Shown: positions 12,115-17,921 of the stretch, in pieces | How the letters are laid out: each line of letters begins with the position of its first letter | Position numbering within the stretch: position 1 is the first letter of the stretch | Assembly (NCBI GenBank): GCA_020832495.1 | Contig: JAFIEP010000053.1 | Span: 1-41,665 of the forward strand | DNA length: 41,665 nucleotides | From: Acidimicrobiia bacterium | GTDB lineage: Bacteria > Actinomycetota > Acidimicrobiia > Acidimicrobiales > Acidimicrobilacustridaceae | Direction: 5' to 3' | Notes under the pieces: generated by a model | The model's input: only the letters and a program-made list of their open reading frames with translations | Told to the model about the DNA's origin: nothing | The model's database searches: none | Program-made: the position numbers and the translations under genes

Positions 12115-12120
12115 TAACGT
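12115..12120 (+). promoter_or_regulatory. -10 element of the CHAD-ParA operon (leaderless)
   Basis: TAACGT is followed by 8 nt and ATG 12129, and no Shine-Dalgarno sequence lies between. This supports ATG 12129 over the upstream open frame that begins at 11985 inside the membrane-protein gene. Confidence 0.45.
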
Positions 12121-12128
12121 GGCCGACC

Positions 12129-13748
12129 ATGGGTGTCCGACGCTTCGCCTTCCCGGAGGGAGGCGACCTGTCCTCGCTGCTCGCTGGTGTGGCCACCCGC
12201 ACCCCACTGGTCACCGATGACGAGGTCCGTGTGGTGCGGACCCTGTACGACACCTTCGACTGGCGCATCTGGGGCGATGACGGCCTCCTCGAACACGAAC
12301 GTCCCGACACCCCCGGCGGCGAGGGCCATCTCGTGTGGCGGCGACGTTCGAGCGGGGAGGTACTCGGCCGCCTGGAGATCGACGATGTCCCTCGCTTCGT
12401 GACCGAGCTGCGCTCGGGCCGGCTGGCCGACCGACTGGCGCCGGTGGTCGACGTCCGGGCCATCGAGCCCCTCACCCGGCTGACCACTGACCGCCAGACC
12501 CTCCGCATGATCGACGACGACGACAAGACCGTGGCTCGAGTGGTCGTCGACCGCTCCACCGTGGTGCCGCTGGATCGTCCCCACGGCACACGTGCTGAAC
12601 CTCGCACGCTCCAAACCACCATCGAGGTCGTCCCGGTTCGTGGCTACCCGAAGGCCGCCAAGGAGCTGAACCGGCTGCTCGAGGCACAGGTCACCCTCCG
12701 TCCACAGGCCGAGAGCTCAGCGGTGGAGGCACTGCGGACGAACCGCCGCCGGCCGGGTGACTACAGCTCCAAGCTGGCCCTCGAGCTGAGCTCGACCATG
12801 ACGGCAAGCGAAGCCTGGTGCACGGTGCTGCGCACGCTCCTGGCCGTGATGCACACCAACGAGGACGGCGTGCGCCACGACCGCGACCCGGAATTCCTCC
12901 ACGACTACCGGGTGGCCATCCGACGCAGCCGATCGGTGCTCGCCCAAGGCAAGGGGGTGTTGCCCGACGCCGAGCGCCGACAGTTCGCCGACGAACTGCG
13001 CTGGCTCGGCGGCGTGACCAGCCCGGTCCGAGACCTCGACGTGGAACTGCTCGAGCTGCCGACCTACGACACCAGCCTGCCGACGTCGTTGCGCGGCTCA
13101 CTCCAGCCGCTGGCCGACTGGCTGCAGGCACGCCAACGCGCCGCGCATGGCGACCTGGTGGCCGCGCTCGACGGCGAGCGGTACCGAGAACTGCTCGCCG
13201 CCTACGCCACCTGGCTGGATCACCCGGGCCACGACCCTCGTGCCCCCGAGGCAGCTCATCCGTCCTCCGCCGTGGCCGCCGCCCGGATCGCCAAGGCGTT
13301 CCGCCGTGTGGTCCGCGACGGGCGACGCATCGACGACACGAGCCCTCCGGAATCGCTCCACGACCTGCGCAAGGACACCAAGAAGCTTCGCTACGCCCTC
13401 GAGTGCTACGGCAGCCTGTTCCCCCCCGAGACGGTCCGCCCCATCGTGCGCCACCTGAAAGTGCTCCAGGACTGCCTGGGCGAGTTCCAGGACTGCGAGG
13501 TGCAGGCACTGTCGTTGCGCACCGCGGCCGACGCCCTGCTCGCCGAGCAGCGGACCCAGGCAGCCACCCTGATGGCCATCGGTCACCTCGTCGAACACCT
13601 CGACGAACGACAGGCAGAGGCCCGAGCCGCGTTCAACCGCACGTTCCGCCAGTTCGACACCGACGAGGTGGGTCACCTGGTCTCGCTCGTCCGCGACCAC
13701 GGGCGGGCCAGCCTCGCTGCATCCCCCGCCGGCCGAGAGGAGCACTGA
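12129..13748 (+). CDS. CHAD domain protein with degenerate CYTH-like N-terminus
   Basis: 539 residues. The CHAD domain (about 215-520) shows both internal halves: FLHDYRVAIRRSRS near 257-269 with SPVRDLDVELLEL near 300, and SLHDLRKDTKKLRYALE followed by QDCLGEFQDCE in the second half. CHAD domains are helical, bind polyphosphate through conserved His/Arg/Lys, and several have been shown to sit on polyphosphate granules. The first 180 residues look like a CYTH (triphosphate tunnel) fold but lack the N-terminal ExExK motif, so triphosphatase activity is doubtful. The stop is 2 bp before parA, and the two share a promoter at 12115. The reading frame upstream of 12129 runs into the previous gene and is not used. 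Confidence 0.87.
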   Translation: MGVRRFAFPEGGDLSSLLAGVATRTPLVTDDEVRVVRTLYDTFDWRIWGDDGLLEHERPDTPGGEGHLVWRRRSSGEVLGRLEIDDVPRFVTELRSGRLADRLAPVVDVRAIEPLTRLTTDRQTLRMIDDDDKTVARVVVDRSTVVPLDRPHGTRAEPRTLQTTIEVVPVRGYPKAAKELNRLLEAQVTLRPQAESSAVEALRTNRRRPGDYSSKLALELSSTMTASEAWCTVLRTLLAVMHTNEDGVRHDRDPEFLHDYRVAIRRSRSVLAQGKGVLPDAERRQFADELRWLGGVTSPVRDLDVELLELPTYDTSLPTSLRGSLQPLADWLQARQRAAHGDLVAALDGERYRELLAAYATWLDHPGHDPRAPEAAHPSSAVAAARIAKAFRRVVRDGRRIDDTSPPESLHDLRKDTKKLRYALECYGSLFPPETVRPIVRHLKVLQDCLGEFQDCEVQALSLRTAADALLAEQRTQAATLMAIGHLVEHLDERQAEARAAFNRTFRQFDTDEVGHLVSLVRDHGRASLAASPAGREEH

Positions 13749-13750
13749 CC

Positions 13751-14506
13751 ATGGCAGCGATCGTGCTGGCCAGCTACAGCAGCAAGGGCGGGGTGGGTAA
13801 GACCGCCGCCGCGGTGAACCTGGCGCACGTGGCCGCCGAGCAGGGGTGGCGAACGCTCGTATGGGACCTCGACCCCCAGGCGGCGGCCACGTTCTACTTC
13901 CGGGTGAAACCCAAGGTGAAAGGCGGAGGCCGAGCTCTCATCCGACAGAAGCGCCCGCTCGACGACGTGGTCAAGGGCACCGACTTCGAGGGGCTGGACC
14001 TCGTGCCGGCCGACTTCTCCTACCGCAACCTCGACCTCGTCCTCGACGACACGAAGAAGCCGTTGCGACGCCTGGCCAAGGTCCTCAAACCGATCGCCCG
14101 CGACTACGACGTGGTGCTCCTCGACTGTCCACCGAGCATCTCGCTGGCGTCCGAGAGCGTCTTCGAGGCCGCCAACGCGCTGATGGTGCCGGTCATCCCC
14201 ACCACCCTGTCGGTGAGGACGCTGGAACAGCTCGACGACTTCCTGGCCGACGCCACCAGCCCGCCCCGGCTCATGCCCTTCTTCTCCATGGTGGACGGCC
14301 GCAAGCGCCTCCATCGGGATGTCATGGAAGCGCTGCGTGCCAGCCGGACGGACCTGTTGACCACGACCGTGCCGGCCACCGCCGACGTCGAACGCATGGG
14401 CCTCCACCGCACTCCCGTCACAGCGCAGGCTCCGCGCTCACGCGCTGCCGCTGCCTATCGCGACCTGTGGGCCGAGGTCATCGCCACCTGTCGCGCCGAC
14501 CGCTGA
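13751..14506 (+). CDS. ParA/MinD-like ATPase
   Basis: 251 residues. The deviant Walker A motif SKGGVGKTAAAVNLA carries the signature Lys12 and Lys17 of ParA/MinD proteins. WDLDPQAAAT (A' region) and VVLLDCPPS (Walker B) follow. There is no N-terminal DNA-binding domain and no amphipathic MinD-type C-terminal helix, so it resembles small ParA proteins that position cargo by gradients over the nucleoid. No parB lies beside it and no parS sites were noticed, which argues against chromosome partition. It is 2 bp behind the CHAD gene with GAGAGGAG as ribosome binding site. Positioning of CHAD-bound polyphosphate granules is the inferred role. The long frame continuing upstream from 12818 is an overlap with the CHAD gene. 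Confidence 0.9.
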   Translation: MAAIVLASYSSKGGVGKTAAAVNLAHVAAEQGWRTLVWDLDPQAAATFYFRVKPKVKGGGRALIRQKRPLDDVVKGTDFEGLDLVPADFSYRNLDLVLDDTKKPLRRLAKVLKPIARDYDVVLLDCPPSISLASESVFEAANALMVPVIPTTLSVRTLEQLDDFLADATSPPRLMPFFSMVDGRKRLHRDVMEALRASRTDLLTTTVPATADVERMGLHRTPVTAQAPRSRAAAAYRDLWAEVIATCRADR

Positions 14507-14585
14507 CGGCGGAACCGGGCGAACGCCGGCCACGGGGTCGGTCCGTTGGACGACAGTGGGACCGAACGAGGCACAATGGTTCGTG

Positions 14586-15296
14586 ATGACGAGCCAGCCC
14601 GATACCACCGCTGAGGACGTCCACGCCGATGCCGACACCGACGCCGGATCCTTTGTCATCGATGCTGCGTTCGACGACCCGGTGCCGCCGGCCACCACCA
14701 AGCGCCCCAACCTCGACTTCGTGACCGAACGGCTGGCCACCGGCGGCGACCTGCACCCGGTCGAGGAGGTGGCGCGGACCGACCTCGAGGCGATGCTCGA
14801 GCTGGGCATCACCCACATCGTCGACACGCGCATGGAGTGGAGCGACGAGGACTTCGTGGCGGAGCACGCGCCCGAGGTCACCTACGTCCACCTCGGCGTC
14901 GACGACGCCGGCCAGCGACTCCCCGACGAGTGGTTCGATCGGGGCATCGGTGCCGCGGTCGGGGCGCTGGCGCTGCCCGACACCCGCGTGCTCGTGCACT
15001 GCCACATGGGGATCAACCGGGGCCCCAGCCTGGCCTTCGCCGTGCTGCTCCACCAGGGGCTGCCGGTCACCGACGCCCTGGCGGCCATCCGGACGGCTCG
15101 CCCCATCGCCGCCATCGGCTACGCCCACGATGCCCTTCGACATCACCACGTCGCCAACGACGTGCCCTTCGACGTCCGTGAGGAGAACTGGGCGACGCTC
15201 GACCGCTGGATGTCTGAGAACCGGATCGACGTCGAACGCATCATCCGTGGGATCCGTGCCGAGGAAGGCACGATCTTCAAGAGCATGGGAGGATGA
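14586..15296 (+). CDS. Dual-specificity/tyrosine phosphatase-like protein
   Basis: 236 residues. The P-loop HCHMGINRG gives the Cys-based phosphatase signature HCx5R, with Cys139 and Arg145. HLGVDD (about 102-107) offers the general-acid Asp. The first 45 residues are acidic and probably disordered. After the P-loop the protein has the helical pattern of the dual-specificity family, with LPVTDALAAIRTARP in place of the usual helix. ATG 14586 is preferred; a GTG at 14556 would add ten residues. Possible substrates are phosphoproteins, phosphoinositides or phosphorylated small molecules. The stop overlaps the GluQ-RS start (ATGA). It probably belongs to the same transcription unit as CHAD and ParA, with a 79-bp gap in front. 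Confidence 0.8.
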   Translation: MTSQPDTTAEDVHADADTDAGSFVIDAAFDDPVPPATTKRPNLDFVTERLATGGDLHPVEEVARTDLEAMLELGITHIVDTRMEWSDEDFVAEHAPEVTYVHLGVDDAGQRLPDEWFDRGIGAAVGALALPDTRVLVHCHMGINRGPSLAFAVLLHQGLPVTDALAAIRTARPIAAIGYAHDALRHHHVANDVPFDVREENWATLDRWMSENRIDVERIIRGIRAEEGTIFKSMGG

Positions 15297-16286: not shown

Positions 16287-17921
16287 TCAGTCGGAGGGGT
16301 CCACCTGGACGATCGACCGGTGTTCGGGGATCCAGCGCAGGTCGAGTGTGACCATGCTGTCCATCTTGTCGCTCAGCGACGAGACCAAGTCGTCGATACC
16401 CGGCGGATCACCCGCACCGACCACCGTCACCTGGATCTCGCCGCCGTTCACCGCGATGTTCATCACCCTGGTGTCGTCTCGATCGACGAGCCAGGAGTCC
16501 ACCACCGTAGCCACGGTGTTCTCGTGCGACACCGATCGGGCGATCTGGTTCCCTGACACGATGAGAGGGAGGCTGACCGCGAGCGTCCCGGCCAACAGGG
16601 TGGCCACATAGACGCTGACCCTGTGCTGCTCTGCTTCGAGTCGGGCCACCGGGCTGTAACCCGAGAGCACGAGGACGAAGCCGCCCGCCAACATGATGGC
16701 CACCAGGTTGGTCGCGTACAGGAGGAACGCGCCGATCGCATCGCCGTAGAGTCCGGCCTGCAAGGTGATCCCGACGACGCTGAGCGGCGGCACCAATGCC
16801 ACGGCGATAGCCACGCCCGGCAACGAGTCGGCCACATCCTCGCGGGCCAAGGCGAAGGCGCCGGCGGCGCCGGCGGCGATGGCGATCAGCAGGTCCAAGA
16901 AGGTCGGTGACACCCGAGAGGCGATCTGTGCGTTGGTGTCGAGGTCGGCGAGGACGGGCAGGAAGCGCGCTGCGATGAACGAGAAGGCGATGGCCCCTGC
17001 GGTTCCACCCGCCACGATGAGGGCGCTCACCCCCGCCCGCCCCGGCAGTCCGGTGACGAGCGCGGCCGTGGTGGCCATGATCGGGACCATCAACGGAGCA
17101 ATGAGCATGGCGCCGATGACCACCGCCGTCGAGTCGGTGATGATGCCCAAGGTGGCGATGAACACCGACAGCAGGAGCAGCACGGTGAAGCGTGCCAGGC
17201 GAGGGCGATACGCAGCGCCCTCGAAGAACAGTTTCTCGTCGAGCCGGTTGCGGTCCTCGACCGGGAGTTCTCTTGCTCGGAGCCACAGGCGCAGCACACG
17301 AGCGGTCTCGGCCGGGTCGGGGTCGACGAGATCGTTCTCCCTGCGCGGCGCCGCGTAGGTGACGGCGATCGCCCCGGCGACGACCCATGCCACACCGATG
17401 GCCAGCACCGTGGCTCGCGCCGCCATGACCGGCCACACCAACGGAACGATGCCACCAGCCACGGCCAGGAGCCCCTTGGCCACCAGCCAGGATCGTTCGC
17501 CGCTGCGACGGCCGGCGAACCCGCCCCGCACGAGCGACACAGCGCCGTACGCTACGAGAAGCGCGCCCACGGCGCGGCCGAGCACCATCACGCTGGCGTC
17601 TGGCCAGACCACCAGCACGAGACCCGCCCCGGACGCTGTTGCAATCTCAGCGAGACGGCGGTGTCCGCCGCGTCGACGGGCAAGCAGGAAGTCGAGCGCC
17701 GCCGTCGCCACCAGCGCGCCACCTACGACGAGAGCTAGGAAGTCCGGGTCGCCCTCGGGACCGAAGAGCACGATCAGGAAGGCGACGATGGCAATCGTCG
17801 CCCGTCCGGTGGCCCGGTTGACGACGGCGGGATGGGTCAGGCGCTCACGGAGCGCCGCCAGCCGGTCAGTGCTCGACTGGTCCGCCGTCGAGTCGCCGGT
17901 GCGACGTCGCTCCTCAGACAC
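16287..17921 (-). CDS. DUF308-like plus DUF389 membrane protein
   Basis: 544 residues. The second half is DUF389 (TIGR00341-type): TDSTAVVIGAMLIAPLMVPI is its hallmark, followed by further helices and a short C-terminal soluble domain ending about residue 544. The first half (about 35-190) contains six hydrophobic segments with the alternating pattern of HdeD/DUF308 proteins, such as GLVLVVWPDASV and GGIVPLVWPV. A charged linker, VDPDPAETARVLRLWLRAREL, joins them. DUF389 proteins have no established activity. The GTG start at 17921 has no clear ribosome binding site. The radical SAM gene ends 57 bp upstream on the same strand, so the two may be co-transcribed. Confidence 0.85.
   Translation of the reverse strand: MSEERRRTGDSTADQSSTDRLAALRERLTHPAVVNRATGRATIAIVAFLIVLFGPEGDPDFLALVVGGALVATAALDFLLARRRGGHRRLAEIATASGAGLVLVVWPDASVMVLGRAVGALLVAYGAVSLVRGGFAGRRSGERSWLVAKGLLAVAGGIVPLVWPVMAARATVLAIGVAWVVAGAIAVTYAAPRRENDLVDPDPAETARVLRLWLRARELPVEDRNRLDEKLFFEGAAYRPRLARFTVLLLLSVFIATLGIITDSTAVVIGAMLIAPLMVPIMATTAALVTGLPGRAGVSALIVAGGTAGAIAFSFIAARFLPVLADLDTNAQIASRVSPTFLDLLIAIAAGAAGAFALAREDVADSLPGVAIAVALVPPLSVVGITLQAGLYGDAIGAFLLYATNLVAIMLAGGFVLVLSGYSPVARLEAEQHRVSVYVATLLAGTLAVSLPLIVSGNQIARSVSHENTVATVVDSWLVDRDDTRVMNIAVNGGEIQVTVVGAGDPPGIDDLVSSLSDKMDSMVTLDLRWIPEHRSIVQVDPSD

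Follow-up and report, generated by a model that had tools for sequence, protein, structure and literature searches.

The window analysed here is the whole of contig JAFIEP010000053.1 (C2; 41,665 nucleotides) from an Acidimicrobiia bacterium whose genome (GCA_020832495.1) is assembled in 147 contigs, totals 4.46 Mb and is 97% complete. Its forward strand carries a gene for a CHAD domain protein (P0001) and, 2 bp further on, a gene for a small ParA ATPase (P0002) (table 1). An earlier reading of the sequence, hereafter the original prediction, proposed that this pair positions polyphosphate granules, pointing to the 2 bp gap and to the lack of an adjacent parB; the open reading frames confirm the former and the gene content the latter. 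Across the genome we found one CHAD protein, one ppk1 (on a different contig), one ParB_N match and five ParA matches including P0002, to which the next-best ParAs are 32% identical. The sole ParB_N match of the assembled genome lies on C70 and adjoins a different ParA, and no spare ParB that might partner P0002 was found genome-wide.

Table 1. Features of the CHAD–ParA locus, in window coordinates.
Feature	Position	Strand	Details
TAACGT, possible −10 of a leaderless promoter	12115..12120	+	8 nt 5′ of the CHAD ATG; lone weak motif
CHAD protein gene (P0001)	12129..13748	+	539 aa; ATG 12129, stop 13746-13748; N-terminal pseudo-TTM/CYTH and C-terminal CHAD
Pseudo-TTM (triphosphate tunnel metalloenzyme) domain	12129..12761	+	residues 1-211; without EXEXK; predicted fold
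CHAD domain	12762..13706	+	residues 212-526; predicted model against CtCHAD 6qv7: Z 35.8, root-mean-square deviation 1.8, 314 residues aligned
P0001 residues at CtCHAD polyphosphate contacts			H258, R261, R265, R301, K389, R392, R393, R421, Y422, R441, K444
Shine-Dalgarno-like GAGAGGAG for parA	13735..13742	+	within the 3′ end of the CHAD gene; sequence read
ParA ATPase gene (P0002)	13751..14506	+	251 aa; ATG 13751; CHAD-linked ParA family
Deviant Walker A KGGVGKT	13784..13804	+	residues 12-18; intact; invariant in 23 aligned rows including the window

The pair is conserved far beyond this genome, recurring in four phyla: Actinomycetota, Pseudomonadota, the Bacteroidota/Chlorobiia group and Thermodesulfobacteriota, the last on one contig. 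Among 198 genomes sampled from the same order, 94 matched the CHAD protein. In the best 30 of those loci (window included), ParA lay directly downstream on the same strand in 23, and these ParAs (window aside) were 55–67% identical to that of the window, compared with 30–46% for the CHAD proteins. The remaining loci were one with ParA fragments only (L026) and six without ParA inside the 1.5 kb flank. Searching the same genomes with a ParA alignment (E ≤ 1e-50) yielded 44 places in 43 genomes, again including the window, and a CHAD match was found directly upstream on the same strand at 31 of them. GTDB contigs were also scanned with this alignment, and 80 loci among the matches listed were analysed: 13 close relatives (at least 38% identity) and 67 other ParAs (at most 34%), with flanks of up to 6 kb that were shorter at contig ends (374 bases upstream at L046). 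Among these listed matches, CHAD was upstream in 8 of the 13 close relatives and in none of the 67 others; the eight comprised four Actinomycetota, two Gammaproteobacteria, one alphaproteobacterium and a short Desulfobacterales contig. Together with the 4 bp overlaps described below, these figures rule out chance adjacency of CHAD and ParA. The ParA family was present in 24 of 396 Actinomycetota genomes (6 of the 24 also belong to the order sample), with CHAD adjoining in 13, and in 68 of 398 Pseudomonadota genomes, where CHAD adjoined 7 of 69 places. In the phylum of the Chitinophagales genome G203 (196 genomes), 56 genomes matched the CHAD protein and ParA adjoined it in 25 of the 30 loci examined.

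Some loci join the pair to other genes of phosphate metabolism. A gammaproteobacterial locus (L175:2024-8453, the same as L039) reads ppk1–CHAD–parA with a convergent ppk2 on the other side, uniting polyphosphate synthesis genes with the pair. Eight plasmid records matched ParA and three were examined, from Paracoccus, Pontibacter and Halomonas. The Paracoccus marcusii plasmid (L118:3467-7243) has CHAD, ParA, CYTH, NUDIX and CYTH genes in a row, a plasmid-borne version of the pair with additional phosphate-type genes. No CHAD gene was found in the Pontibacter stretch, the upstream side of which ends at the record end, and the unannotated Halomonas plasmid gave no CHAD match.

The two genes are tightly coupled. 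Spacing was scripted over 90 loci, giving 73 pairs: 45 show an exact 4 bp overlap and 70 are no more than 20 bp apart. When the surroundings of 20 order loci, picked for carrying the pair, were surveyed with those of the window (up to approximately 8 kb each side), no other family occurred in more than 8 of the 21 loci, antisense frames over the pair excepted, and PPK1 was close to the pair in two. Distances in the CHAD and ParA gene trees are correlated (Mantel r 0.61, with none of 999 permutations as high), a value to which shared descent contributes. ParA and CHAD still co-occur where the genes are unlinked, with ancestry not corrected for: in the Pseudomonadota sample, CHAD was found anywhere in the genome in 57 of 68 ParA-positive and 145 of 330 ParA-negative genomes (Fisher p 7e-10). 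ParA in turn was present in 31 of 39 Pseudomonadota genomes with a strong stand-alone CHAD and 37 of 359 others (p 4e-20), where ‘strong’ means an open frame of at most 400 amino acids with E ≤ 1e-47, a cut picked after the list was seen. In the order sample, ppk1 was present in all 43 ParA-positive genomes and 131 of 155 others (p 0.003, ancestry ignored). A functional link between ParA, CHAD and polyphosphate is strongly supported.

P0002 matches AAA_31 (E 5.6e-31) and carries the deviant Walker A motif with its signature lysine, the hallmark of ParA/MinD positioning ATPases. Its predicted structure (predicted local distance difference test (pLDDT) score 90.1) is closest to Soj/ParA (Z approximately 33–34, at 22–32% sequence identity), followed by McdA (29.6) and MinD (26.9), which points to a ParA-type rather than a MinD-type fold. 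In a quick tree of 139 ParAs, limited to rows of at least 200 residues, one per locus, with 10 outgroup ParAs retained, the 129 rows of the family were separated from the 10-row Soj-type outgroup with a Shimodaira–Hasegawa-like approximate likelihood ratio test (SH-aLRT) support of 100. The genome's own Soj-type ParA clusters there with an Acidimicrobiaceae sequence. Adjacency to CHAD changes 8 times on this tree, compared with 40.4 in shuffles, and 48 of the 49 CHAD-adjacent rows fall in one 67-row clade, whose SH-aLRT of 87 is not firm. A plain chromosomal or plasmid ParA was rejected as an identity for P0002, as family members scored at least 262 bits and other ParAs at most 154 among the loci first compared. 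The edge of the family is not sharp: searches at E 1e-50 added places of 180–260 bits, and two of the three order places at 180–184 bits are CHAD-adjacent.

Members of this family also occur apart from CHAD. For unlinked Pseudomonadota ParAs, a common partner was sought and rejected: judged by one representative per cluster, their neighbours are truA, cysM, rnfH, bacA-like, DNA-glycosylase, mutL and ABC-transporter genes, and one same-strand neighbour cluster covering 22 such loci has no family match. An unlinked Pseudomonadota clade of 37 rows (L187, L196, L208, L221, L224 and others of L186–L233) lies, by these representatives, amid housekeeping genes (truA, cysM, rnfH, bacA-like), and many of its host genomes hold a stand-alone CHAD elsewhere. 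Neither genome of two further members, from Alcanivorax (L048:4691-6735) and Chitinophagales (L043:1171-1920), gave a CHAD match; upstream of the Alcanivorax ParA lies a 396-residue frame of no known family. These ParAs perhaps serve another cargo, and the family may serve more than one.

The CHAD match of P0001 (PF05235, residues 233–463, E 1.2e-63) falls within a predicted model of high confidence (pLDDT 94.3) that superposes closely on CtCHAD (table 1), a domain that has been crystallised with polyphosphate and for which binding was measured (PMC6537752). Identity between the window CHAD and CtCHAD is 39%, and 11 of the 12 CtCHAD contact residues, those mutated in that study (PMC6537752), are kept in P0001: nine are identical and two are Lys to Arg changes, while R385 is lost to Ala388. 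By this residue mapping, P0001 has the basic residues of the central pore and surface patches that characterise the CHAD class. In genome G1084, the CHAD of locus L312 is 100% identical to the CtCHAD chain over 307 residues, and a ParA of the CHAD-linked family, 48% identical to P0002, starts 2 bp after it. Given this CHAD identity, G1084 most likely represents Chlorobaculum (Chlorobium) tepidum or something very close to it. The Chlorobium tepidum ParA-family structure 3ea0, a fold match of P0002 at 20% identity, is taken to be a protein other than this linked ParA. ParA-linked CHADs match CtCHAD with a median of 164 bits (71 of 73 matching; 143 bits when the G203-phylum set is left aside, n = 46), compared with 64 bits for the ppk1 set (n = 20, L287 included). 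Given the identity at L312 and these closer matches, the polyphosphate binding of CtCHAD bears directly on the ParA-linked class. The polyphosphate link of the window CHAD, part of the original prediction, is accordingly upheld and appears strong, as judged from sequence.

The approximately 210 N-terminal residues of P0001 matched no Pfam family. The predicted model of residues 1–211 nevertheless resembles TTM structures of a single domain, HpAC1 and TTM3 among them (Z approximately 14–15), with further fold matches to Vtc2 (Z 13.8) and to Mediator Med18 or Med18/20 chains (Z 10–11). Active TTM/CYTH enzymes carry the motif EXEXK, and this motif is absent from P0001. It was found in only 1 of 38 ParA-linked CHADs, compared with 18 of 19 CHADs near ppk1, the latter lying within approximately 1 kb of ppk1 and drawn from 20 hand-picked stretches. 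L287 was dropped from that set, having no PPK1 in its stretch and the genome's 180-bit ParA-family gene beside its CHAD; counting it as ParA-linked gives 1 of 39. The lone EXEXK-bearing ParA-linked CHAD (L045) is a long branch in the tree. None of 30 CHADs from the G203 phylum, 25 of them ParA-linked, has the motif. Because all three same-class CHADs without an adjoining ParA lack it as well, absence of the motif is a mark of the class and not of present adjacency. Both types of CHAD were found within a single genome in the four genomes examined (G115, G029, G038 and G127). At L306, L310 and L314, ParA-less CHADs of the ParA-linked class have PPK1 directly adjoining, possibly by a swap of neighbours between ParA and PPK1. 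Next to ParA, then, the CHAD protein has the look of a pseudo-enzyme, whereas next to ppk1 it retains the motif; loss of EXEXK on a TTM fold suggests a pseudo-enzyme adaptor. The combination of a predicted TTM fold for the N-terminal domain with EXEXK loss in ParA-linked CHADs is new here.

Little else at the locus travels with the pair. No Shine-Dalgarno sequence was evident on reading the sequence upstream of the CHAD ATG, and a leaderless promoter there is plausible only. Just 3′ of parA (14556-15296, +) lies a gene for a dual-specificity phosphatase-like protein (DSPc, E 7.8e-9); neither this nor the upstream membrane protein is conserved with the pair across the 20 order loci compared with the window. 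Further downstream on the reverse strand are a gene for a single chain combining DUF308 and DUF389 (16287-17921) and one for a 902-residue radical SAM protein (PF04055; 17979-20687), whose N-terminal region is long and which has no further Pfam match at E 0.001.

We consider the most likely mechanism to be a dedicated cargo-positioning pair that places polyphosphate granules, with a probability of roughly 0.6. The CHAD domain would hold polyphosphate at the granule surface, and the pseudo-TTM domain, no longer enzymatic, would act as a protein–protein adaptor that recruits ParA, probably with stimulation of its ATPase activity. The nucleoid would be coated by ParA-ATP dimers; CHAD-coated granules would strip them locally and follow the resulting gradient. 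In this way granules would be spaced and divided between daughters by a diffusion ratchet, as in McdAB carboxysomes and ParABS DNA. The fuller claim, of a dedicated ParA-driven granule partition system in four phyla with a dead TTM–CHAD protein as adaptor and CtCHAD as a member, we hold to be marginally better than an even bet. The original prediction is upheld in part. It named a pair confined to this genome and a ParB elsewhere that matches this ParA as findings that would count against it, and neither was observed. The functional link between ParA and CHAD is well supported; the further step, granule spacing with CHAD as the adaptor, is one that we infer.

Several observations weigh against granule positioning by this pair. 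The genes are by no means always together: CHAD does not adjoin 13 of the 44 ParA-family places found in the order, 5 of the 30 CHAD loci in the G203 phylum have no ParA alongside (three of these adjoin ppk1 instead), and EXEXK-less CHADs of the same class stand without an adjoining ParA at L009/L251, L012/L252 and L024/L253. In the tree, the ParA-family clade of 37 Pseudomonadota rows never adjoins CHAD. No CHAD was seen in 11 of the 68 Pseudomonadota genomes that have the ParA, nor in the ParA-bearing genomes G203 and G208 and the Halomonas plasmid; the co-occurrence p-values, moreover, ignore shared ancestry. Partner proteins of ParA/MinD ATPases usually have a charged, disordered N-terminal stretch for ParA interaction (PMC10241942). 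No such stretch is evident in P0001, where strand 1 of the model starts at residue 4; contact with ParA through another surface of the CHAD protein is possible. Finally, depletion of Ralstonia CHAD proteins, possibly of another class than the ParA-linked one, was reported to give no apparent phenotype (PMC6537752).

Other explanations of the gene pair differ in what they ask of the ATPase. CHAD-bound polyphosphate could switch the ParA-like ATPase, or the reverse, reporting phosphate or energy state to the cell cycle or chromosome apparatus while the granules stay unmoved. The same gene-pair evidence applies to such signalling and a regulatory role of the pseudo-TTM domain is conceivable; BcsQ and FleN, ParA-like proteins with regulatory roles, are among the fold matches of P0002. 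However, no third conserved gene that could be the target was found in the 20 order loci and the window, and the fold of P0002 is closest to Soj/ParA and McdA, a class that moves cargo (PMC13052382). We therefore regard signalling as a serious but unlikely alternative. A DNA-binding ParA and a polyphosphate-binding CHAD might instead simply anchor granules to the nucleoid, without ATP-driven spacing. AlgP, a DNA-binding protein speculated to tether granules, offers a precedent (PMC9239181), and a 2025 review states that an energy need for polyphosphate granules is still to be seen (PMC13052382). Such a tether has no obvious need of a conserved ATPase site, yet the deviant Walker A motif is invariant in the aligned rows, and we think passive anchoring improbable.

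Two further possibilities fare worse on the comparative data. The CHAD protein could be an active polyphosphatase or CYTH adenylyl cyclase, with ParA as an ATPase that assists in the metabolism of polyphosphate or nucleotides. The TTM fold predicted for its N-terminal domain would fit, and a polyphosphate-regulated cyclase was suggested for an Acidithiobacillus protein encoded beside ppk and parA (PMC6416229). Absence of EXEXK from 37 of 38 ParA-linked CHADs and all 30 of the G203 phylum, set against its presence in 18 of 19 ppk1-adjacent ones, makes this very improbable. Least credible is a gene order without functional meaning, in which one gene merely hitch-hikes with the other. Several genomes do hold one gene without the other alongside, but hitch-hiking is already contradicted by conservation in four phyla, mostly with a 4 bp overlap, by correlated trees in varying surroundings and by co-occurrence when the genes are unlinked.

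Placement and inheritance of polyphosphate granules in bacteria is an open question, and whether energy is used is still to be seen (PMC13052382). The ParA–CHAD pair offers a concrete two-protein candidate machine, for whose polyphosphate-binding half there is a ligand-bound crystal structure of a domain identical to the ParA-linked one at L312. If granule positioning by the pair is correct, the TTM/CHAD family would gain a non-enzymatic role and a storage polymer would join the cargoes of ParA ATPases. Were the partition system to span four phyla and include CtCHAD, an ATP-driven route for passing on polyphosphate stores would be widespread, and bacteria with the pair may place granules actively or share them between daughter cells. 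We found no proposal of a ParA for polyphosphate granules in the titles and abstract openings of the matches listed, a search with bioRxiv and most of the subscription literature outside its scope. Likewise, neither polyphosphate nor CHAD occurs in the main text of a survey of ParA/MinD cargoes, in the form available to us (PMC10241942).

Among known systems, P0001 shares with the phosins and other CHAD proteins (CtCHAD, ygiF, PptA) the CHAD fold and contact residues, and differs in that its TTM domain lacks EXEXK. The word ParA is absent from the main text of the CtCHAD paper as available to us, although gene loci are shown in one of its figures (PMC6537752). The folD-ppk-parA-CHAD cluster of Acidithiobacillus, similar to the present pair by gene names, also groups parA and CHAD genes, there with ppk, but the accessible parts of the two reports propose no positioning role (PMC10892726, PMC6416229). 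AlgP is required for even granule spacing in Pseudomonas aeruginosa; unlike the present proteins it is a histone H1-like DNA-binding protein, and the word ParA is absent from the main text of that paper (PMC9239181). In Caulobacter, granule placement and inheritance in step with the cell cycle resemble what we propose, but placement depends on chromosome replication and segregation, and no dedicated ATPase is named in the available sections of the review (PMC13052382). The ParABS (Soj) system provides the closest fold, and the genome's own Soj-type ParA is 32% identical to P0002. It differs in having a ParB partner, none having been found for P0002 in this genome, and the CHAD-linked family splits with full support from the Soj-type outgroup. 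McdAB is similar in architecture: in both systems a small ParA-type ATPase is encoded beside the gene for a cargo-binding partner (binding being assigned here by homology) with no parB, and the McdA fold is close to that of P0002. McdB is small and largely disordered, whereas the partner here is a folded pseudo-TTM/CHAD protein and the putative cargo is polyphosphate.

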